Below are positions 20,416-58,240 of a DNA stretch of 64,000 nucleotides, in pieces. The translations under genes were made by a program, and so were the position numbers. Numbering within the stretch: position 1 is the stretch's first letter; every line of letters starts with the position of its first letter. The notes below the pieces were generated by a model, which saw nothing but the letters and a program-made list of their open reading frames with translations, had not been told where the DNA came from and searched no databases. Origin of the DNA: Thelephora terrestris. Taxonomy: Eukaryota; Basidiomycota; Agaricomycetes; Thelephorales; Thelephoraceae. Where the stretch lies: NCBI GenBank assembly GCA_015956445.1, contig WIUZ02000012.1:806001-870000 (forward strand), read 5' to 3'.

Positions 20416-22056
20416 CTAAACGTCAACCACTCTATCGAATTCATTGAGAGCCTGCGTCTTTGCCTTCTCCTTCTCTCTGTCGCGCCAAGCACAATACTCC
20501 TCCGATTTTATCCAATCTGCCCAAGGGGTCTCTTCTAAGGTGGCCCACCACTCCTCCGCATACGGATGACCTCTCGCCTTCGCATACCCCCATGGCTTGG
20601 AAACACACGGCTGGACGTAGGGGTTCAAGACCGAAGGGAGGGAGGGACTGACAGGTCCGGTGAAGTGGACAAGGATCGGGTTGGCCATTTCGTGTAGGTT
20701 GGCCGCATCCCTGTCTGGCGTGTGGAGTTCGGCATAAGTCCCCAAGCCCTGTGCGTTCCATTCCAGGCTTAATGACTTCCAAGCTCCCCGAAAATGGACG
20801 TTCAGCACGTCCTGCTCCACGAACTTTGAAGACACCATTGACTTCGAGATTTCCCTGAGCTTCTGTACCTCACGTCTAATTCTCGTCAAGTCCATCAACA
20901 ATACCCCGGCGTTGAAATATGGTCCGTGCTCAGTCATCTCGTGGCCAAGGGGGAAACCGACGTCTGGACATGCTCCAAGCGGCTTTCCGTCCAAATCTAC
21001 ATCCCATAATCTCCCAACATCCCCCCTTGCCAGGACGTCTGCATCCAGGTATAGCGCGCGTTCAACCGGAAGTAGGTCAATCAGGTCGATCTTCGCCCAT
21101 ACTGGACCCAGGGAAGCGCCTAGACCATCGTTGCTGAGTGGGATGAATGTGAGGGAGACGTTTGGCTTCTCCGCGACGGACAGCATCATTCGGTCCTTGT
21201 CCTCGGCGCTGAGGCCACAGTCGATGACGTAGAACGTGACCCTTCGGGATGAATGTTTAACGATGCTATGGATGGTCACGGTTGCTGGCATGGCGTAGGA
21301 AGCGCCGGCCACGAGGGCGATGTTGACGCTATAACCGAACGCGTCTGCCCTGACGTCGACTGGCGCTGAGTTCTCCACGAGGAAACCGATATGCATCTCG
21401 GTTTTCTTTCGAAGTACCATCTGGTAAGTGGAGGAAATAATCTCGAACTCGTCTTTGTGGAGCTTCATGAAGGCATCGACGCCCGGTTTTGGATGGTACA
21501 GACTGTCGTTGGGCTGAACTCCCCAGAGATAGTCGTCGAAAATGATAATGGCGCCCTCGTTCGCCAGTCGCCAAGCTAGTTCGGCGTCGAGAAAGGTATC
21601 ATCTGCCCTATGGGATCCATCGATGTACAACCAGTCAAAGCCAGCGGTTTCGCCCTTGGTCGCCTCCTCGAGGAGGTCCATTAGGCCAAGGACGCTGAAT
21701 TTCTCGATCACCCTGAAAGGGCGACCGGTGAGAGCGAGATTATGGAGGATTTTTTCGTGGCGCTCTTTTCCCGCTGGAGTGGCGAAGAGGTCGAAGTGAT
21801 CGATGCACACGATGGAGCCGCCGTTTGCGCAGAGTGGAGAAGTCAGGAGGAAGATTGCAGAGCGACCTTCCCAAGACCCTATCTCGAGGATCCGTGGGTT
21901 GGGAGTGGTGACTAGCGGCATGAAGGACGTCCAAAGGGGGATGTTCCCTGAGAACCAGTCTTGGGTCTCGGTGAATCTGTATCCCTTGGTCTCATCGTCC
22001 GCCACGGTGATTGTCAAGTCCTTGTCTACGGGTGAGCTTGTGATTTTTTGGCGCAT
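20416..22056 (-). CDS. Methyltransferase-24 / GT8 glycosyltransferase fusion
   Basis: Single-exon 546-residue protein. Residues about 30-220 are a class I SAM methyltransferase of the Methyltransf_24/TylF-CmcI kind: ILEIGSWEGRSAIFLL (56-71, SAM-binding), IVCIDHFD (82-89), DWLYIDGSHRADD (141-153, metal-binding acidic loop), GAIIIFDDYLWG (168-179). Residues about 220-490 are a family 8 glycosyltransferase: VNIALVAGASYAMPATVTIH, VERALYLDADVL (331-342, DxD), YFNAGVLLMDL (380-390), EQDVLN (414-419), VHFTG (463-467). No signal peptide or membrane helix is visible, so a cytosolic enzyme is likely. It diverges from the epimerase-glycosyltransferase fusion. Substrate unknown; the fusion suggests O-methylation and transfer on the same sugar product. 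Confidence 0.85.
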   Translation of the reverse strand: MRQKITSSPVDKDLTITVADDETKGYRFTETQDWFSGNIPLWTSFMPLVTTPNPRILEIGSWEGRSAIFLLTSPLCANGGSIVCIDHFDLFATPAGKERHEKILHNLALTGRPFRVIEKFSVLGLMDLLEEATKGETAGFDWLYIDGSHRADDTFLDAELAWRLANEGAIIIFDDYLWGVQPNDSLYHPKPGVDAFMKLHKDEFEIISSTYQMVLRKKTEMHIGFLVENSAPVDVRADAFGYSVNIALVAGASYAMPATVTIHSIVKHSSRRVTFYVIDCGLSAEDKDRMMLSVAEKPNVSLTFIPLSNDGLGASLGPVWAKIDLIDLLPVERALYLDADVLARGDVGRLWDVDLDGKPLGACPDVGFPLGHEMTEHGPYFNAGVLLMDLTRIRREVQKLREISKSMVSSKFVEQDVLNVHFRGAWKSLSLEWNAQGLGTYAELHTPDRDAANLHEMANPILVHFTGPVSPSLPSVLNPYVQPCVSKPWGYAKARGHPYAEEWWATLEETPWADWIKSEEYCAWRDREKEKAKTQALNEFDRVVDV

Positions 22057-22363
22057 TCTTTGTGCTTACCATGCTCTCTCTCTCACTATGCAGGGAGTTC
22101 TTGGGGAGTGAGTGAGCAAGGATCTCCTCTTCAGGGGTTCAAGTTTATCGCAAACGTTGAATGGGCATGCCGTCACTCCGGCCACACTTTCCCAAGCGAG
22201 TTAAGATTCGTATACATATCCGCCACAGCGGGTGAAGTTTGTACACCCGCCACACTTTCATGGGCGGCGACTTTGTAATCCGCCACACTTTTGGAAGAAC
22301 TTAAACCCAGCTAGGCTGGAATCGCTATCAGCAACATCTCAAGGGCTACCTCTTTTCTTCATC
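22057..22363. promoter_or_regulatory. Shared divergent promoter with repeated boxes
   Basis: This 307-bp interval separates the start codons of two divergent glycan-enzyme genes. It contains CCGCCACACTTT at 22247-22258 and 22280-22291, the variant CCGGCCACACTTT at 22178-22190, and a half copy CCGCCACAGCGGG at 22220-22232. All are in the same orientation. Such repeated boxes are candidate binding sites for a factor controlling both genes; this is inference from position. Confidence 0.55.
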
Positions 22364-25300
22364 ATGTCCCCAGAGGACCTCGGAAAGATTCTTGTGACTG
22401 GCGGGCATGGGTTCATCGTAAGGCTGTTAAAAAACACTTCGTGACCTCCTGCTAACTCACTGGTGATACAGGGAGGCCATGTAGCCGCACGACTCGTCGG
22501 TGAAGGGCATCGCGTCCGTGTCGTCGATAATTCTCCCTCTACGTTCCACTCTCCAGAAGGAATCTGCTCCGAATTTATCCAGGGCAACTTATGTGACATT
22601 GATGTGTGCCGAAGGGCGGTGGTAGGGGTCAAGACTGTGCTTCATTTCGCAGCAAATATGGGTGGAATGGGGACTATCCACGAGCGGAACGAGTCGCAGA
22701 TCTACCGCGAAAACCACTCGATGACGATGAACCTCCTTGATGCTTCCGTTGAGGCCGGTGTCAAGCGTTTTTTCTTCGCTTCCTCGGCGTGCGTCTACCC
22801 GGGGGACCTCCAATCCGACGAGCACAAAGATGTATCTCTCCGCGAAACGGACGTCTACCCTTCAAACCCTCAAGGCCTTTACGGATGTGAGAAGCTCAAC
22901 ACCGAGCACCTCCTCCGGTCTTCGAACGGCGGCATGCTCATACAGATTGCTCGTTTCCACAATGTCTATGGTCCCCGTGGTGCTTGGAATAACGGGCGTG
23001 AGAAGGCCCCTGCAGCGATGCTTCGAAAGGCGTTTGTGGCCGCTGCCCTCCACCGCGACCATGGTATTGAGCGCCCCTGCTTCGAGATTTGGGGAAGCGG
23101 AAAACAACGGAGGAGTTTCCTCTACATCGACGACGCTGTGGACGGAGTCATCAGCCTTCTTCAATCCAAGTACCCGGAGCCAGTTAATATCGGGTCCGAT
23201 CGCTCAATCACTATTCAAGGACTTGCGGATATTGCCGTTAGATGCGCCGATTCCCCTCCAGCCGAATTCCAGTGCACCTCCCCGGGACTCCACCCTCTTG
23301 AAGTCGATACCATCGGAGTAGCGTCTCGCAACTCCAATAACGAGCTCGTGGGAGCGAAGCTTGGCTGGAAACCAAAGTATTCATTGGAGGATGGTCTAAA
23401 AGCCACTGGTAACTGGATCAACAAGGAGCTACACGATTTGACTGGCCGTCTCCTTCGCGAGCAACAACTCTCCGCTCTCCACGAATTGCAGACAAGCCGC
23501 GTTGTGGACCTCACCAACGATTCCATTTGCTTCGCAATCCTTCTACCAGTGACCTCTCGTGGCTCCCACTCACAAAAGACCTGCCTAGATAACCTTCTTG
23601 CTTTCTCCCGTTCCCTTATGGCGACGACCTACCGAGATACACACGAGGTAGGTGTCGTTTCATTCAGATTCAAAATATACCTCTCCATTGACCACGATGA
23701 TCACTTTCTCCTCAGTCCCGAGTCAAAGGCCGAAGTGACTTTGAGGACTGCTGGAATTGTAGACATTGTCACGATCGAGGCGAACCACGCGAAAGGCCAC
23801 GTCTGTGCTCACTGGCGTGATTGTGCCCGACGCGCCTTCGAGGATCAATGCGACTACTTTACTCTCCTTGGAGACGACGTCACTTTGAAGGACCCGGGAT
23901 GGATGAGGAGGATTCACGAGGAATTCAAACGATTGCAAAACGGAAAGGGCGTCCCTTTTGGCTTTGGCTGCGTGGCTTTCACCGATACGACCTTCCCGGG
24001 CATGCCAACTTTCCCTGTCATACATCGGACGCATATGGAGATCTTCGAGGGCCTAGTTGTTCCAGAGGTCTTCTTCAACCAGGATGGCGACCCTTTCCTC
24101 TTCCAACTTTACAGACGGTGGGGGTGTTCCAGTATGATCGAGGCTCGGATTGGGAACGGGGTAGGTGGAAGCAGTGGGGCGCGTTACGACAAGAGGTCGG
24201 CGTCGGACTGGACTTTCGATACCTTGGACAAGGCCGTCGCGAAAGTGGAAGACTGGTTATCACTGAAGGCTCCATCAACCGTGAAGCTGCTCACATTAGA
24301 CGTCGTTATCCCATCATATCGTGTCGACCTCAGGTTCCTCGATCCAATCCTACAACTGCGCCCTCCAGAGACCTGCTCCGTCATGTTCATAATCATCATC
24401 GACGATCCGAACTCTCCTTCGATAGATGACTTGCAGAAGAAGTACGGCGAAGACCCCTTCGTTCGCATTCGGGTGAACAAGACCAACCTTGGCGCTTCAG
24501 CTTCACGGAACCGTGGTATGAAGGAGTCTGCTGCCGACTGGATCCATTTCCTCGACGACGACATCGCTCCCGGCGACGACCTATTAGTCCGGGCTGCAGA
24601 GGTTATCCGAGAACGCCCCGGCGCCGCAGGGTTTGTCGGAACTTCCAAGTTCCCCGTCGCCGACAGCGTGTTTACGACCGCAATCCACCTCGCAGACGTT
24701 ACCTATTTCTGGGACATCGCGCGGAAGAGGCCGGGGGACAGGGACCTGCCTTGGGGAGTCACCGCTAACCTGATCGCTAGACGCAATGCAGACGGAGTCG
24801 ACTTCGATTTGATTTTTCCCAAAACCGGTGGAGGAGAGGATATCGACTTTTGCCGAAAGAAGAGGGATTGGGTGGTTTCCAAGAAGGGCGGAGGGGGCGG
24901 AGGGTTCTGCGCTGCTCCAGCTGTCGTCGTTACTCATCCTTGGTGGAACGGAGGACGTCCTTCCTTCTGGAGGTTCTATGGATGGGGAAAGGGAGACGGA
25001 GCGTTGGTCAAGCTGTACCCACAGTTTCGCTATTGCGATTTTGCCCCAAGCAGTGGCGAGACTCTCCTTCTCTGCCTCCTGGGATTCCTTTTTTCCCTTC
25101 TCACCCCCCTCGATTTTGCACACCGGGGAGAATACGTCTCACTCTCACTCTGCGGGGCGGTCGCCGTCATTCTAGCAAACGCGTTTCATTCGATCTACAA
25201 GACAACTTTCCCTGATTACGACCGTTGGGAGTTCCAGCAGTGTACCACCACCGGCTCCAGGTATGCTATCGCGGTCGTCGTGAGCGCCTTTATCAGAGTG

Positions 25301-25522
25301 GTCAGCGAGCTTGGGAGGACTGTGGGGATGTTGGAGAGGGGCGAAATCTGGTACCTTGGGAGGAGGTTCGACTGGTTCGCGGGTGGAGGGGGCAGGGATC
25401 CTATCGCCAACGAACGGAGAGGTTCTCTGCAGCGACTCGCCCTTTGCATTGTGTTCACGATGTTGCTACGAGGTTTGCAATTGTCAGTCGGACGAGCTTT
25501 CTCTTTCTCTCTCGAAATTTAG
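22364..25522 (+). CDS. GDP-mannose-3,5-epimerase-like / glycosyltransferase / GT2 membrane fusion
   Basis: A protein of about 1034 residues in two exons (intron 22418-22471). Residues 1-345 are an extended SDR sugar-nucleotide epimerase: GGHGFIGGHVA (NAD site), SSACVYP with Cys at about 125, YGCEK (YxxxK, 155-159), RFHNVYGPRGAWNNGREKAP (about 179-198), VNIGSD. Those Cys and REKAP residues match plant GDP-mannose 3,5-epimerase. Residues 370-605 look like a second glycosyltransferase-like domain with a GDDV acidic motif at about 485. Residues 627-840 are a GT-A family 2 domain: VVIPSYR, TNLGASASRNRGMKES, IHFLDDDIAPGDD (about 709-721), GGGEDIDFCRKK. Hydrophobic segments at about 882-900, 908-924, 949-965 and 1008-1020 anchor it. 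Intron-poor compared with its neighbours. Confidence 0.85.
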
Positions 25523-37279: not shown

Positions 37280-40200
37280 TCACGTCTCCACGCCCTGGTC
37301 GAGATGATCATTGAACAGCTCTTCACGAACTCTATCCGCCTCTGCAACCTCCTCGACAGCGGGACCGTGTTCTTTCGTGGGCTCGGGTTCGTTGGGAGAG
37401 ACCGACTCCCCATCGGAAGAGGATCTACCTTCATCACTCGTAGGCCTATCCTCAGGCTTTTCAACCGACTGATTCGAATTTCCGCTGGGAGGCGACTCGT
37501 CGCTCGGGGAGACAGGCGTGTCCGAGCTACCGGGATGTTCGTTGAGCTTAACGAGCTCATCGGCGTTAACGACCTTCGCGGCCGCAACAGCGACTGTGCT
37601 AACTACTTTATCTTCTGGGGGTTGTTTTGCTTCTTCTTCCCAGATAGCCTGACTCTTCGCTGGATCAATGGGTTCGGCAGCGAAGATGTCACGACCAGGC
37701 TCCGGATGTCCGACGAGACGAACAGACGATTCACTCTCCGGAGGGTTTCCCCCTGCGGGTGGTGCATCATCAACGATGATGGGCGCTCTACCCTCTCCAC
37801 CAACTATGGAAGCTGCCCCTATCCCTGTAGCAGCGGGACCTTTGTCGGAATAACCGGAGTACTGGTAATAATTAGGTCAAAAGATATTTCCCAGCTCGCA
37901 TGGAACTTACGTCAACGGGGAACTCGTTGCTAGAAGATTGGGGAGTCGGGGTCAGGAAATCGTTCAGGGTGAAAGAAAGAGGAGTGGGATTCACCAAGAG
38001 AAGTCCCAAGATTTCACCCATTGCGCCCTTCTACACTGATGGAGGGTCCATTGGTTCCCATATGCGAGTGGGCTGAGGTACCAGAAGTTCCAGATTGCGA
38101 CGATCATAAGGACGGCGCCGATTTGCAGCCTGATCTTGGGTCGCAGGGCAGCAGTCATTAGGTCGAAGAATGAGCAAAACAGAAGAATAGCGAAATAAAG
38201 GGCCGGAAAGTAGTGATGCAGGAAGAGTTGACGGGTCATCAGGAAGAAGGGGCCGTAATGGAGGAACCAGCCCATAAACAAGAATCCGCAGAGACTGTCA
38301 TATTTTACAACCTTCGCTGTCGGGGGATCGGTAAGGCTCGTAGTTGGCTGGTGTGGTGACTCACTGTTGTCGAAATCCCTATATCCTCGCTTTTCTCGGA
38401 GAATGAGAAGGCTACGAACGGATATGTATGCAACAGCGGCAAGTGTGCTCGACCACCAAACGAACGGATTACCAATAAGATAGATTTGTTTGTGATCCCT
38501 GACCCAAAAGTTCTGTATAGTGCTTCAGTGGGAGTAAGATCTCAGGAGTTGAAATTATCACGCACGATACCGCGTCGTAACCGAGGCCATTGGTGGGGTC
38601 GAGAATCGTAGATATGGCGATCAGTGAGACCTGCGTTGGTCACCCACATGACCTTTTGGAGCTCCCAGAACTTCTCCAAGAAACCAGGCGACCTATAATT
38701 GACCTTTGGAGCATCGGGGGGAACTATCGGACTGGTTAGAATTGGTTGGATCTGCAGCAAGCATTGGTACTGACGGTTCGGGTGAATCGCCGTCTCAATC
38801 ATCCATAGAGAATTGGCCTTCATCGCGTTCTTGTTGCACGTCACCTCCTGTTGCTCAAAGCCCCAATCCGGCAATTTTACTTTATGAGAAAAGAGGTAAC
38901 AGTTAGTCATGGCGTGTCTCAACCTGAAGACGGTACGCAATGTGCGGACGCGAATGGATGATTCCTTGTCACTCTTGTCACCGTGCTCGATCTCGACAAC
39001 CCAGTCGTCGTTCGCATCTCCGACGAAATCCACCATCCCATAACCAGAAACCTCATTCTGGAAATCAACATCAGAGACCGGGGGCCTGTAATCGTGCGAG
39101 TGGAGGTTCTTGGCCGTAACGATGTGTCTCAATCTGACTTTCATCCCAGTGGTGACGTACTGGAGGGGCTCATCGGCCCATTCGGTCTCAGGGTGACCGC
39201 TGTCCTTGGCTGCAATGATGCGCCAGTCGTTATTGAGGTCGCTGTGAGGGTACAACGTAACCTGTTGTTCTACGTTTGTCCGCCTGAGCTTATAGAAAGG
39301 ATAATGATAATGGAGAAGACTTACGTCCACTCCCTCCAGGATAAGCGTGAGCGTGCGAGTGCAGGTTTCCCCCTTGTGTATTTATGTGACGAATGGTGAC
39401 CGCAGACCCAATCGCGACGTCTTCGGTCCCGGCAACAATTAGCGATATACGACTGAACAAACAATGCCAACCCACCGGCATAAGTATCCTGCATACTGCG
39501 TCCACCAAGCGTGTGTTGAAACTCTGCGCTCATAAACCCATCACCCTCGCCTGAGTTGACCAGAATGAGGAAGTGGATCTGGAAGATAAACAGATAGAAC
39601 AAGAAAGGAACTACGATGAGACACAAAGCTCGAGCCAAAAAGTGGCGAATCCAAAGCCTGGGAGAGATGCGTATGTCGCCAAGGAGGCACCACAATTGGC
39701 TGATCGTACTGAAGCCGATGGTAGCGATAGTGAACAAGCCAACCCACTTGCAGCTTACAACAGCACCGAGTGAGAGGCCTGTAAGCATTAGCCACGTCCA
39801 CCAGCTCTCACTGAATGGATGTCGCTTGTCTTCGTTACAGAAACTAACCCATAGGAACGTAGTGAGGGCAGTGAAGAATAATAAAGGAGAGTCGAGTAGG
39901 ATATGTCGGGATTGAGTGACAATGCCGTTCTCAAAGGTGATGAGAACCGTGGCGAGGAGAGCGGTGGTTGCACGACATTCGAGAGCACGCATTGTGAGAT
40001 AGGCGAGCGGAACGGTGGCAACACCCAAGATGGCTGGCACCATTCGCATTGCGACGTACGGTACATTCTCGTAGACCCTGCAATTGTGAGGCTGCATTTA
40101 ACGATGCACGGTAGTCGAGAACGTTCGTGGACCCACTTTGCGATCTCCTTGAAATCGAAATTTCCGTTGTACCCGAAGACGAATCCCGCGAGAGTGATCA

Positions 40201-51423: not shown

Positions 51424-51781
51424 AGTTCCATGTATTCAGTCAACTTCATTCGCGCTTCCTCCCTTCTCCTAACCCTTAGTGCACCTTCATTGTCTCCTGC
51501 TTCCGTCCTTTGCCCACGCATTGTAGATTATATTAATCACCCGCATAGCTAGCATGTTACTGAACCACCCATTTAATCATCATCATGTGCCGAATCTTAC
51601 ACCACACACGTGCGTTTGCCCATTGTACATGGCCGCTACAAAACCCTACAAAAACGCAATATCTTCTGATTCTAAAAATAGCTTCAGCCCGCACTACCGC
51701 CAGTCTGGCTGTTGGGTCCTGCGTATGCTAGAAGTCATGAAACATGCAGAGTGATTGGTGAAAGAGAGCGATCCATCGACA
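51424..51781. other. Convergent 3' region; start of duplicated block
   Basis: From about 51517 the sequence (ATTGTAGATTATATTAATCA and on) reappears at about 54934 with few changes. So the duplicated unit begins within this interval. No gene seen. Confidence 0.6.
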
Positions 51782-54700
51782 CTAACGGTTTCTGAGGGCG
51801 AGCAGGATGCGTCTCGCTTGTACAAGACTGTCAACCTTTATCCTCTTAGCGATGAAGACCGGGTCAGTAGACAATGCGTCGTACTGCATCAGCGCGTCCT
51901 CAGTGTTTCCCAACTCCGACTCCACCGCTGAAAGCCACGTATTGAAATCCGCCTCCCCCCTCATAGCGACTTCCCTTGCGACCTCCTGCAACCGCTCTTG
52001 GATCTCAGGGATCAACTCCCCGTACTTCAGCCACAAAATCTCCAGCCACAGAACTCTAGCATGCGGGTTTTCCACCTCCGAAATAGCATCTATCAGCTCC
52101 GAGTTGTCGAGGCACCTCTTCAAAGGTTGAGAGTCGTCCGGAACCGAGGCGATGTATTGCAGCAGGTTCCAATCCTTTGGGGCAATATAAGGCCGCCAAT
52201 TTTGGGAGTTGATCATACCGAGCAGGACCGTGAGGATAACATTCTGGACATCGGAGGTGTGCTCGATATCGCCAACGGCGGAGGACCAGTCTTCGTACAA
52301 GCTCCTCATTTGGTCGGGATCCATGATTGGATCAGGAGCGTTGAACCACTTGTCGCCGATGAGGGCAAGGAAAAAGAGAGCAGCTTTGCGAAGCTCGAAC
52401 GGCCTGTCGCTCTGGAAAACATACAAGATGCCGCGAACGAAAGAGGGATCGGTTGGGTCGAACTTGTTGAGAGCATCGAGGGTGTCAGGACCATAGGCGT
52501 AAGCCAAAGCGCGTAAAGCATTTTGAATTGGTTCATCCTGGTTAGGACCACCCACTGCAGCCAATTCGAAGTGATGGTTCAAGAAGTCGAGGATGTGTTG
52601 AGGATCCCCGACATAAGGCATCCACTCGTCCCACTTGTACGCGCCGTGAATGGTGAGACGGGCGGCCCGCCATTTCTCTTCGGAGTCGGTGAAAGGTGCG
52701 GGGAGCTGCATGATAGTGTGGAAGAGGTCATAGTTCTTTGAAACAGGGTCATGGTTCTTTGGAACAAGTCCAATCCCAAAAAATCGAGCGACGAGTCCCG
52801 TGTCTACCAGGGCGCGGTGGGTCATAAATGGGTTATAAATGAAGAATATCTGAGAAGGAAGGTTCTTGTATATCTTCTCGAATAGATCGCCCCTTTTATC
52901 ACTGCAGTGAAGCAGTTGAGTTACATCCTAGAAACCGGTCGAAGTCAACTAACCTCTTGTCCATGACCAGCAAGTCACTAACGTGTAACTTGATTCCGAG
53001 GGACAGACCAAAGATGAATAGGCAATCCGTTACGATCGGTGCAGGGGGAGGAGGCTCCAGCCGAAGAGAGTCCCGAGCGAACTCCCTGATATCGGCGGGT
53101 AATGAGCGACCTCTCCTGAGGATATCCCAGGCACGATAGAGGAGGATGTGACTCAACCAAGCGTGGTGAGGGACAGTGAAGGAGGGGGCGTGCAAACGTA
53201 TCTCTTCGGGGTCACCAAAGATTCGATCGATAATACCGAGAGTGGATTCTAGATCCGAGTCTCCCTCGTAGTGATGTGATCCGATGTTCGAATGCCGTTC
53301 CGAGATATAGTTGAACATAGCTTCGTCGGATTCGTCGCCAATGCACTTGCGCTGAATAACGAGGTGAAGGAATGCTCTGGCACTGAGATAGGCCTTGTTC
53401 CTGAACCTGGGAATCACCACGGGCAATTCGCGTGATTGGTCGAAGCATCTGAGTAGGTTGTCATAGAGTATTTCTAAGGGAATGGCACGGATTCCGTTGT
53501 GCCAAACGACCTCAGGGACGAACTTCGTGATCGCCAACATGACGTCCGCGTCCTTCGATCTATCGAACATCCAAGCGATGCAATTCGAGTCCAACACGAA
53601 ACCTGGCCAGTCAGTCGTCTCGTTGAATAGCGGGGGTTGCTGATCGAGATTCTCCATGGTTAACTCAACGTCACCACTAATCTCTTCCGTGTTGACGCCT
53701 CGCGTAGTGTGGGTTATGTTGGACCTTGGGCGGTGCTGTCTCCTTTTCTTGAAGAACGTGCGCACAAACCGCTTCCTAAATCTCCTGAGGTATTTCCTGT
53801 GCTCATCGTCGAAGCGGATCATGTAGCGAATAACAAGGGAAAGAGGAGTCTGGAACGGGCAGTTGTAGGATAGGGTGGCGGCGGAAACGATGAGCAAATA
53901 GAAGAGGACACCGAACGACGTGAAGCCGACAACAACCCCAGCGACTGTGTTGTTGATAGTGAAGAGGTATTTGGAAAGGGCACAACTGAGGAGGAGAAGG
54001 GCCGCTTGGAGCATGAGAGGCAGACATTCCATGACGAGGTCGAAGCGCCAGGTTACCATTCCGTTCATCTTGCGTTGTCGGTGCCGACCGCGATCTATAA
54101 TGGTATCATGCGGGTCGTCCTGAGAATAGCGGTTGAGCCATTGTTTTCCTAACATAGCAAAGAGAGCAGCGAGGAGGGAAGCAGCCAAACTTGAGTAAAG
54201 GATGGCTTCGACGTGGACTATGGCGGGATCGGGCCCAGTCCATTGAGGAAAAGCGGCGCTGGGGTCAGGTGGGGTGTGTCCAAGCGAAATATTGGCCATA
54301 AGCGTTAGGACGGTGTAGCTGAGTTGTGTGTAATCCGGTTGGAGCGAGGTCTCCACGCTGACAATGAAAGCGGATGCGACCGCGGAGAACAGACCGGCCT
54401 ATCCCAGACAGCCAGGTTCAGATCGCGAGCAAGGTGGATAAGAAACAAAAAGGTACCCACGAATATCAAGGTGGTGCTCAGGTCATCGTCGTATTTCTTG
54501 ATAAACTCGCGGTCGTGGTTGCTGGTTTGGCGTTGGAACTCTTTATAGAACTCAACGCGGGCATTATCTTCCGTTCCAAGGAGGTGTGGAAAGAGAGTCG
54601 ACAATGCTTTGAGCATGGCATCCTCCAAACTGGAAACGAAAACCGCAATCAGCAAAGGTTTGGAGGGAGGGGGTGCCATCGATTGGACGCACGCCTTTGG

Positions 54701-54934
54701 GCTGATGGCTGCTACCTCCATGCATATGGTGGAGCTGAAGCAATGAGCGTGCTCTACGGGCCACAGGAAATGAGGAGATTTGAGGTTTAGCGCTTCGGAT
54801 AATAGGAAAGCGAGGACGGTGGTCCCAATGGTAGGAGACCCTTCCATGTTGAATAACATCCATAGTTTATACACTTGACTCAAAGCACAAGTGGGACTCT
54901 GATTAGGATATAAATATTGCAAAAGACCACACAT
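51517..54934 (-). repeat. Tandem duplication, unit 1
   Basis: This block carries one DUF6535 gene and 3' flank. Unit 2 (about 54934-58240) repeats gene and flank in the same order and direction. Long identical runs, matching introns and shared 3' flank (TAGCATGTTACTGAACCACC at both) show a direct tandem duplication. Confidence 0.8.
51782..54721 (-). CDS. DUF6535 membrane protein, copy A
   Basis: Three exons. Start at 54721 (MEVAAISPKACVQSM) chosen because copy B has an ATG at the same point. Exon 1 ends STTLIFV; exon 2 starts AGLFSAVASAFIVSVETSLQ (the DUF6535 signature), then YSSLAASLLAALFAMLGKQW, LMLQAALLLLSCALSKYLF, VAGVVVGFTSFGVLFYLLIV, so four membrane segments. A large cytosolic region follows (VLDSNCIAWMFDRSKDADVM, AWLSHILLYRAWDILRRGRS). 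After SDLLVMDKR exon 3 gives SDKRGDLFEKIYKNLPSQ and helical HEAT-like sequence (HILDFLNHHFELAAVG, ALRALAYAYGPDTLDALNKF) to the stop. The DUF6535 family is expanded in agaricomycetes; function unknown. Confidence 0.82.
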
Positions 54935-55187
54935 TGTAGATTATATTAATCACACGCACAGCTAGCATGTTACTGAACCACCCATTCAATCATCATCATG
55001 TGCCAAATCTCACACCATACGCGTTTGCCCATTGTGGCCGCTCCAAAACCTTACAAAAACACAATGCATATCTGCTGATTCAAAAAATAGCTCAAGCCCG
55101 TACTACCGCGAGTCTGGCTGTTGTGTCCTGCTTATGCTAGCGAGAAATCATACATAACGATTAGTGAGAAAGAGCGATCCATCGACA
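54722..55187. other. Between the two DUF6535 copies; duplication junction
   Basis: Holds the putative promoter of copy A (54722-54930) and the 3' flank of copy B (54934-55187). The junction of the two duplicated units lies near 54930. Confidence 0.55.
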
Positions 55188-58100
55188 CTAACGCCTTCTG
55201 AGGGCGAGCAGGGTGCGTCTCGCTTCTACAAGACTGTCAACCTTCATCCTCTGAGCGATGGCGACCGGGTCAGTAGACAATGCGTCGTACCGCATCAGCG
55301 CGTCGTCAGCCTTTCCCCACTCCGACTCCACCGCTGACAGACACGCATTGAAGTCCGGCCCCTCACTCTGAGCAACTTCCCTCGTGACCTTCTTCAACTG
55401 CTCTCGGATCTCAGGGATCAACTTCTTGTAATTCAGCCACAAAATCTCCAGCCACAGAACTCTAGCATGCGGGTTTTCCACCTCCGAAATAGCATCTATC
55501 AGCTCCGAGTTGTCGAGGCACCTCTTCAAAGGCTGAGAGTCGTCCGGAACCGCGGCGATGTATTGCAGCAGGTTCCAATTCTTTGAGACAATATGGGGCC
55601 GCCAATGTTGGGAGTTGATCATACCGAGCAGGACCGTAAGGATAGCATTCTGGACATGGTGGGTGTGTTCAATATTGCCGGCGGCGGAGGACCAGTCTTC
55701 GCAAAAGGCATTTATTTGGTCGGGATTCATGATTGGATCAGGAGCGTTGAACCACTTGTCGCCGATACGGGAAAGGAAAAAGAGAGCAGCTTTGCGAAGC
55801 TCGAACGGCCTGTCTCCTTGAAAAACATACGAGATGCCGCCAATGAAAGAAGGGTCGGTTGGGTCGAACTTGTTGAGAGCATCGAGGGTGTCAGGACTAG
55901 GGGCGTAAGCCAATGCACGTAAAGCATTTCGAATTGGTTCATCCTGGTTTTGACCATTCATTACAGCCAATTCGAAGTGATGGTTTAAAAAGTCGAGGAT
56001 GTGTTGAGGATCCCCGACATAAGGCATCCACTCGTCCCACTTGTACGCGCCGTGCATGGTGAGACGAGCGGCCTGCCACTTCTCTTCGGAGTCGGTGAAA
56101 GGTGCGGGGACCTGCATGATAATGTGGAAGAGTTCATAGCTCTTCGAAGCAATCTCCTCCCCAGAGAACGGAGCGATGAGCTTCATGGCTTCCAGGGCGG
56201 AGTCAATCTCCCCTGGGGAAGAACAGGAGTTCTTGAACGTATTGTCAAGTTTCTTGTATATCTCGTCGATTTGATGGCCCTTTTTTTCACTGCAATGAGA
56301 TGATTTAGTTTCATCCTAGAAACCGTTCGAAGTCAACTAACCTCTTGTCCATGACCAGCAAGTCACTAACGTGCACCTTGATTCCGAGGAGTAGACCAAT
56401 GATGAATAGGCAATCCGTTACGATCGGTGCAGGGGGGAGAGGCTCCAGCCGAAGAGACCGCAGAACGAACTCCCTGATATCTTCGGGCAATGGGTTGCGC
56501 CTCTCGAGAACATCCCAGGCACGATAGAGGAGGATGTGACCCAACCAAGCATGGTGAGGGACAGTGAAGGAGGGGAAGTGGAAATCTATCGCTTTGTCTA
56601 TACCAAAGCCAAAGATTCGATCGATAAATCCGAGGGTGGATTCTAGATCCGAGTCTCCCTCGTAGTGATGTGATCCAATGGTCGAATGCCGTGTCGAGAT
56701 GGAGTTGAACAGAGCTTCGTCGGATTGGTTGCCAATGCACTTGCGCTGAATAACGAGGTGAAGGAGTGCTTTGGCACTGAGATAGGCCTTGTTCCTGAGG
56801 CTGGGAATCACCACAGGTTTTCCGTGTGATTGGGAGAAGCATTCGAGTACGTTGTCGTAGAGTACATCTAATGGAATAGCACGGATGCCATGGTGCCAAA
56901 CGACCTCAGGAACGAACTTCATGATCGCCAAGATAACGTCCGCGTCCGTCGATGTCTTGAACATCCAGGCGATGCACTTCGAGTCCAATACGAAACCTTG
57001 GCAATCAGTCTTCCCATTGAATAGCGGATATTGCAGGTCGAGATTCTCCATGGCCAACTCAGCTTGACCGCCAATCACGGCCACGTCAAAGGTGTTGAGA
57101 CCTCGTATAGCGTGGGGCACGCTGGACCCCGGGCGTTGCTGTCTTCTTCTCCGGATGAACGTGCGTCCAAACCACTTCCTGAATCTCCTCAGGTATTCTC
57201 TGTGCTCATCGTCGAAGCGGATCATGTAGCGAATAACAAGGGAAAGAGGAGTCTGGAACGGGCAGTTGTAGGATAGGGTGGCGGCGGAAACGATCAGCAA
57301 ATAGAAGAGGACACCGAACGACGTGAAGCCGACAGCGACCCCAGCGACTGCTTTATTGATAGTGAAGAGGTATTTGGAAAGGGCACAACCGAGGAGGAGA
57401 AGGGCCGCTTGGAGCATGAGAGGTAGGCATTCCATGACGAGGTCGAAGCGCCAGTTTTTCATTCCGTTTATCTTGCGTTGCCGGTACCGACCGCGATCGA
57501 TGATGGATCCACGCAGTTCGTCCTGAGAATAGCGGTTGAGCCATTGCTTCCCTAACATAGCGATGAGAGCAGCGAGGAGGGAAGCAGCCAAACTTGAGTA
57601 AAGGATGGCTTGGACGTGGACTGTGGCGGGATCGGGCCCAGTCCATTGAGGAAAAGCGGCGCTGGGGTCAGGTGGGGTGTGTCCAAGCGAAATATTGGCC
57701 ATAAGCGTTAGGACGGTGTAGCTGAGTTGTGTGTAATCCGGTTGGAGCGAGGTCTCCACGCTGACAATGAAAGCGGATGCGACCGCAGAGAACAGACCGG
57801 CCTATTCCAGAACAGCCAGGTTTAGATCGCGAGCAAGGTGGAACAGGAAACGAAAAGGTACCCACGAATATCAAGGTGGTGCTCAGGTCATCGTCGTATT
57901 TCTTGATAAAGTCGCGGTCGTGATCGGTGGCTTGGCGTTGGACCTTGTCGTAGAACTCGACGCGGGCGTTGGGATCCGTTCCAAGGAGGTGTGGAAAGGC
58001 CTTCGGCAATGCTTTGAGCATGGCCTCCTCCAAACTGGAAACGAAAACTGCAATCAGCAAAGGTTTGGAGGGAGGGGGTGTCGATTCGACGCACGCCTTC

Positions 58101-58240
58101 GAGCTTATGGTTGCTTCCCCCATGGTGGAGCTGAAGCAATGAGCGTGCTCTACGGGCCACAGGAAATGAGGAGGTTTGAGGTTTAGCGCTTTAAACAATG
58201 GCTTCGGATAATAGGAAAGCGAGGACGGTCTCAATGGCTG
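54935..58240 (-). repeat. Tandem duplication, unit 2
   Basis: Second copy of the block at 51517-54934, same direction. Similarity fades upstream of about 58235 and in the first part of exon 3, and remains near complete across exons 1 and 2. Confidence 0.8.
55188..58123 (-). CDS. DUF6535 membrane protein, copy B
   Basis: Paralogue of copy A, with the same three exons and splice sites. Start MGEATISSKACVESTPPPSK at 58123; exon 1 has HDRDFIKKYDDDLSTTLIFV. Exon 2 carries METSLQPDYTQLSYTVL and the same four membrane segments (SSLAASLLAALIAMLGKQW; MLQAALLLLGCALSKYLF; VAGVAVGFTSFGVLFYLLIV). Exon 3 opens SEKKGHQIDEIYKKLDNTFK, where copy A has an unrelated-looking SDKRGDLFEK stretch, then GEIDSALEAMKLIAPF, and rejoins the shared helical domain (HILDFLNHHFELAVMN). 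Both copies are open throughout. The short divergent block at the start of exon 3 is the main difference. Confidence 0.82.

Follow-up and report, generated by a model that had tools for sequence, protein, structure and literature searches.

Organization of the locus

Within the 64-kb stretch of Thelephora terrestris DNA that was analysed (hereafter the window), two fusion genes, designated A and B, lie adjacent and divergent, and an open-reading-frame check of the window places both at the coordinates given below. Together they hold five glycan modules in 546 + 1034 codons that are almost intron-free.

20416-22056, minus strand: gene A, methyltransferase-GT8 fusion, 546 aa (open frame and Pfam)
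20650-21324, minus strand: GT8 module of gene A, LgtC-like (Pfam Glyco_transf_8, E 6.5e-29; D-A-D in LYLDADVL)
21529-21888, minus strand: Methyltransf_24 class I SAM methyltransferase module of gene A (Pfam E 1.3e-16)
22057-22363, no strand: divergent promoter common to A and B, 307 bp between ATGs
22179-22190, 22247-22258 and 22280-22291, plus strand: three copies of the candidate cis element C[CG]GCCACACTTT (12-mer scan)
22364-22417, plus strand: first exon of gene B, in which the nucleotide-binding fold starts (GGHGFI)
22418-22471, plus strand: gene B intron, predicted, 54 nt (GT...CTAAC...AG, with CTAAC as branch site)
22472-25522, plus strand: second exon of gene B, 1016 codons plus the stop
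22472-23437 plus exon 1, plus strand: GDP-mannose 3,5-epimerase (GME) module of gene B (2c59, 1.6e-64)
23534-24112, plus strand: module 2 of gene B, putative GT-A-like glycosyltransferase, DYFxxxGDD...GW (relative in a virus contig)
24371-24628, plus strand: GT2 module of gene B, Pfam-matched part (Glycos_transf_2, 1.8e-11; second search 7.6e-12)
25064-25492, plus strand: C-terminal transmembrane helices of gene B, about four, predicted (hydropathy scan)

Gene A runs from an ATG at 22056 to a stop at 20416-20418, with no intron seen. Gene B (22364-25522, plus strand) encodes 1034 aa and has one intron, which, as read from the sequence alone, splits the nucleotide-binding loop between GHGFI and GGH and keeps the frame. 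As the gene B frame stays open for 1025 codons and shows homology over much of its length, it is not a chance frame. An earlier note on this DNA had described a divergent pair with at least five enzyme modules, a short common promoter, and long uninterrupted coding sequence with one small intron near the start of gene B. All of these features were recovered, the modules from open frames with four Pfam matches plus module 2.

When each protein was searched against the fungus's own genome (40.64 Mb, 60 contigs), a single weak match came back besides the query gene in each case (36.9 and 27.6 bits), and neither gene thus has a close second copy there. Searched by family, the same genome holds 13 epimerase-fold places and seven GT8 places in all. 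Two of its GT8 exons (L266 and L267, contig C45) lie about 7 kb apart and are nearly identical in the GT8 tree, which suggests a recent duplication.

The epimerase of gene B

Judged by its sequence, module 1 is a GDP-mannose 3,5-epimerase with its catalytic residues kept. It belongs to the Epimerase family (Pfam 2.4e-37), and the best five matches among PDB sequences are all GMEs (1.6e-64 to 1.1e-63), led by the Arabidopsis enzyme 2c59, with the next short-chain dehydrogenase/reductase (SDR) following at 1.5e-18. Cys116, Tyr146, Lys150, Lys187 and Arg295 (numbered along the open frame from 22445), which we take to be the catalytic residues of GME with Tyr146 and Lys150 as a pair, are identical in 160/160 aligned GME rows. 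Other GMEs show conservation of 95% or more at 67 columns, of which 61 are kept here.

GME is known from plants, bacteria and phages. The plant enzymes (2c59, 8sg0) share with module 1 the SDR family and the five catalytic residues; the solved plant chains, however, are of 379 and 409 aa, whereas the gene B enzyme shares its chain with two transferases and membrane helices. The relationship is also distant: against four Bacteroidota GMEs the Arabidopsis enzyme reaches 60-62% identity, whereas gene B's best BLAST matches are 38-44% identical, bacterial, viral and plant alike, and its identity over aligned tree columns is at most 46%. The tree was built from the best 80 of 573 bacterial and the best 80 of 576 viral loci, 160 of 169 sequences passing the E-value, stop, length and duplicate filters. 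In it the gene B GME stays unplaced on a branch of 3.28 changes per column, and no donor clade is identifiable among the 159 other rows so chosen. Given this branch and the six near-invariant columns that differ, the product of the enzyme could have changed.

Four Bacteroidota GMEs (L052, 5422-6996; L068, 5419-6996; L078; L096) have frames of 526-538 codons and in the tree lie nearest to plant GME, among the best 80 of 573 bacterial loci. The added N-terminal domain of the L068 and L052 frames is presumably a Nudix hydrolase, as read from the translations. GMEs thus do enter fusions, that of gene B not being among those seen.

A transferase-like module outside Pfam

In module 2, the roughly 250 aa that separate the epimerase from GT2, no Pfam family scored above cut-off. 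No match was returned by tblastn in phages or plasmids at E <= 1, nor any relative by exact 8-mer scans of viral and genome contigs. Eight viral-contig matches to a first degenerate motif were rejected, as alignment held only around the motif. With a second motif, its spacing fitted to the window, a scan of viral contigs yielded one relative, namely a 243-aa protein of a 75-kb virus contig (L219) with 27% identity over 206 positions. The alignment scored 119 against a shuffled maximum of 54 and, with the motif masked, 54 against a shuffled maximum of 51, with 0/1000 shuffles reaching the score in either case. A scan with the two-row alignment returned the same virus contig and no other. Among prokaryotes, the family was found in 0/33 genomes (the single match among 35 records being the virus contig itself), 0/292 from the phylum of a cyanobacterium, 0/296 from that of a Bacteroidota genome and 0/388 from that of an alphaproteobacterium. 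These amount to about 1006 distinct genomes, one archaeon included and three centre genomes occurring twice, surveyed without a positive control, such that the empty answer carries little weight.

The neighbours of the relative on its virus contig are glycosyltransferase-like and nucleotide-sugar genes, named by reading their translations. Of ten proteins tested from this contig, two match Pfam and three match PHROGs, the latter being an SbcC-like nuclease, a family B polymerase and a protein with a transferase match and an intein. A giant virus had been expected; the contig looks more like a large tailed phage, its class being unsure. The environmental virus contig IMGVR_UViG_3300000558_000068 (L220) has, again by reading of translations, an extended series of glycosyltransferase-like and nucleotide-sugar genes.

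Structure prediction gave a model of low confidence (pLDDT 37.6 alone, 43.8 with two rows). Against the PDB, no entry reached E <= 0.001; ArnC, a GT2-type enzyme, came first at 8.9e-3, and the list contains ABO transferases and also TilS and IspD, at TM-scores of about 0.2-0.3. Against viral predictions, the model with pLDDT 43.8 matched a protein without a name (6.4e-4) and one protein each from Cafeteria roenbergensis virus (8.8e-4) and Chrysochromulina ericina virus (2.0e-3, with 23% identity across 148 columns), at TM-scores of 0.3-0.4. Both lists also contain unrelated folds (TilS, IspD, a packaging ATPase). An acidic motif suited to a donor site, GDD, is present in the sequence, and a GT-A-like glycosyltransferase is weakly suggested by the modelled fold.

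GT2 and the predicted membrane helices

The GT2 match that follows scores 44.7 bits against a Pfam cut-off of 23.3. Hydrophobic stretches in gene B were flagged near the C-terminus only, with no N-terminal signal, by a hydropathy threshold lax enough to flag also two stretches inside the folded modules of gene A. The enzymes of gene B probably face the cytosol, as this C-terminal placement and the missing N-terminal signal would imply.

The methyltransferase-GT8 fusion of gene A

The methyltransferase of gene A scores 61.8 bits against a Pfam cut-off of 26.3. The relatives found are of phage and bacterial kinds, 24-35% identical at 25/25 loci; at 12 of these loci the alignment is identical, and they appear to represent a single virus. 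The GT8 module scores 101.7 bits against a cut-off of 24.3, carries its DxD as DAD, and has an LgtC-type alpha-1,4-galactosyltransferase as best solved structure (1e-11). It thus resembles enzymes of the LgtC type in the acidic D-x-D and in the structure match; unlike them, and at this distance (1e-11), it is fused to a methyltransferase, and in a fungus. In the GT8 tree it joins 17 GT8s from bacteria and is separated from four others of its own genome, at a support of 86/91 that is below the star threshold of the tool, and with bacterial rows that were picked by similarity to gene A itself. Seven of 28 loci had no GT8 match and were left out; among the fungal rows, long branches come together.

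Search for either fusion elsewhere

Neither fusion was seen in the 186 loci scanned for modules, nor elsewhere in the prokaryotic and viral material searched. Round 166 GME loci, where no module 2, GT8 or methyltransferase was found near GME at 1e-3, one weak GT2 match occurred (L103), apart from its GME. The open frames at these loci are of 320-538 codons and thus too short for the layout of gene B, which is absent there. The fusion of gene A was likewise not found at the 25 methyltransferase loci, whose open frames are of 190-284 aa. A search with gene A matched 17 of 349 genomes at 1e-8, in 22 places that each cover one module. A search with the back half of gene B matched 59 of 299 genomes at 1e-4, where all places listed start at query residue 218 at least, that is, in GT2 or the stretch preceding it. 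No A-like or B-like fusion was found in these 17 and 59 genomes. The content of gene B has a counterpart in cyanophage S-SCSM1 and a Thalassobaculum plasmid, where GME lies beside glycosyltransferase genes. However, the cyanophage and bacterial nucleotide-sugar loci hold separate genes, whereas gene B of Thelephora terrestris is one protein, and their GMEs show no sister relation to that of gene B in the tree. In the literature, no description of a fungal GME-transferase fusion was found by searches of which several were narrow and may miss a spelling variant. It may also be that such a fusion is common in fungi and simply unannotated.

The common promoter

The three copies of C[CG]GCCACACTTT in the promoter are its only sites in the window, a number reached by 1/100 window shuffles. 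Across the fungus's own genome there are 261 sites, compared with eight for the reversed control. Of these, 170 lie in one dispersed-repeat context, leaving 91; among 12 sites that were read, five were in this repeat. This repeat (e.g., L200-L203 and L207) carries the promoter 12-mer, with 170 exact sites of TATTGGCCGCCACACTTT in the genome. Either the repeat spreads a promoter element, or the two share the 12-mer by accident. The 12-mer is thus a candidate cis element. On account of the shared promoter and the 12-mer, which elsewhere is mostly in the dispersed repeat, co-regulation of genes A and B is proposed.

Composition and neighbourhood

The GC3 of gene A (0.66) is slightly above the range of 11 neighbouring frames (0.51-0.64), within which gene B falls (0.62). 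The codon fit is 0.054 for gene A and 0.063 for gene B, against -0.003 to 0.082 for the neighbours, the reference frames being stretches between stop codons that match Pfam at E <= 0.001, not trimmed to exons. Scores of 0.049 and 0.037 for the reverse-complement frames come close to those of the coding frames, and the measure is therefore blunt here. The foreign origin suggested in the earlier note finds no echo in composition, which is close to that of the neighbours and not odd. Of 20 neighbouring frames scanned, 11 match families, all of cellular kinds, among them dual-specificity phosphatase (DSPc), Rap1 Myb, cupin_8, mIF3, PPR, amidohydrolase, protein O-mannosyltransferase, MIF4G and DUF6535, where the DSPc and mIF3 matches are below Pfam's own cut-off; the other nine have no family match. 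Insertion of the whole locus by a giant virus was rejected, given these 11 of 20 frames with cellular families.

Origin of the pair

The earlier note had proposed a cassette taken from a bacterium or large DNA virus. The paired, five-module glycan cassette stands as described; its transfer is not shown, in view of the host-like codon use, the lack of a GME donor and the absence of either fusion elsewhere in what was searched. In the domain phylogenies, the GME stays unplaced on its long branch and yields no donor, and the GT8 falls, at 86/91, on the bacterial side. It is quite unlikely that a single bacterium or large DNA virus supplied both genes together in the fairly recent past, and a recent transfer is not supported. 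Nearly intronless frames holding five glycan modules, a GT8 on the bacterial side of its tree, phage and bacterial relatives of the methyltransferase, and a viral relative of module 2 would all suit such an event. However, GC3 and codon use are close to those of the neighbours, the GME has no donor clade, neither fusion appears in the prokaryotic and viral material searched, the matched neighbouring frames are all cellular, and a long open frame is also found in the nearby PPR gene (881 codons).

A more serious rival holds that the pair belongs to an old eukaryotic family, passed on vertically in fungi or wider eukaryotes with patchy loss, and looks foreign owing to sampling of prokaryotes and viruses only. 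The long, unplaced GME branch, the host-like composition and the occurrence of module 2 in none of the roughly 1006 distinct prokaryote genomes are in keeping with this scenario, which is a real possibility though short of probable; the siding of the GT8 with bacterial GT8s, against four others of the fungus, speaks against it. Old foreign ancestry is in turn pointed to by this same bacterial-side GT8, by the phage and bacterial relatives of the methyltransferase and by the viral match of module 2. An older mosaic ancestry is plausible, since the one match of module 2 lies in a virus contig and the prokaryote genomes searched yielded none. Most likely, the modules are of old bacterial or viral type, were fused long ago and have since become host-like in composition.

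A model for the gene pair

Taking the locus as a whole, we lean, on balance, towards a resident fungal glycan-assembly cassette, in which a membrane-anchored gene B protein would make and use a sugar donor with gene A as its partner. In this model, the epimerase of gene B would convert cytosolic GDP-mannose to GDP-L-galactose (or GDP-L-gulose), and one or both of the gene B transferases would place that L-sugar on a lipid, polymer or protein acceptor. The transfer step would occur at the cytosolic face of a membrane, where GDP-mannose is, and the arrangement would be suited to channelling, as the donor would be made beside the transferases. The GT8 of gene A, expressed from the common promoter, would add a further sugar, and its methyltransferase probably O-methylates a sugar. 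A precedent for the working principle, and for that only, is offered by A064R of chlorovirus PBCV-1, a transferase-transferase-methyltransferase protein of 638 aa that finishes one glycan and, like the pair, joins transferases and a methyltransferase; unlike gene B, it has no epimerase among its three domains (PMC9614988). A 3-O-methylated heteroglycan has been reported from Pleurotus (PMC8829048).

In an alternate scenario, what the modules glycosylate and methylate is a secondary metabolite and not a polysaccharide or lipid-linked glycan. The co-location of two fusion enzymes, one with a methyltransferase, would fit; however, no terpene, polyketide or peptide synthase occurs among the 20 neighbouring frames (nine without a family match), and a GT2 with membrane helices would better suit polymer or lipid acceptors, such that this scenario is unlikely. 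Plant GME feeds ascorbate synthesis, and the epimerase could by analogy serve an ascorbate-like pathway, with the attached transferases incidental. This is very improbable, as the fusion of GME to two transferases points to glycan use, and as fungi are described with GULO and yeasts with a D-arabinose route (PMC4396506).

The cassette model can be carried further, albeit tentatively and with more doubt than expectation, to a fungal GDP-L-galactose (or L-gulose) pathway so far unrecorded, in which one membrane protein would make a rare donor and transfer or polymerise it, and a methyltransferase-transferase partner would help to yield a methylated L-sugar glycan, the whole built from parts of bacterial or viral type. 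If this is true, the fusion of a fungal GME to two transferases predicts L-galactose or L-gulose in a fungal glycan, which by way of such a fusion is undescribed as far as the literature search reached. It would further provide a natural case in which the enzyme that makes a donor and the one that uses it share a chain, and would introduce a transferase-like family that is not in Pfam and has a viral relative.

Elsewhere in the window, the protein O-mannosyltransferase gene (MIR and PMT_4TMC, 38545-39381) is some 13 kb away from genes A and B. The region 51514-58191 is a tandem duplication, spaced at about 3.4 kb, with two genes of DUF6535, a family that is typical of Agaricomycotina and thus points to a basidiomycete; the two are 81% identical over 496 positions.
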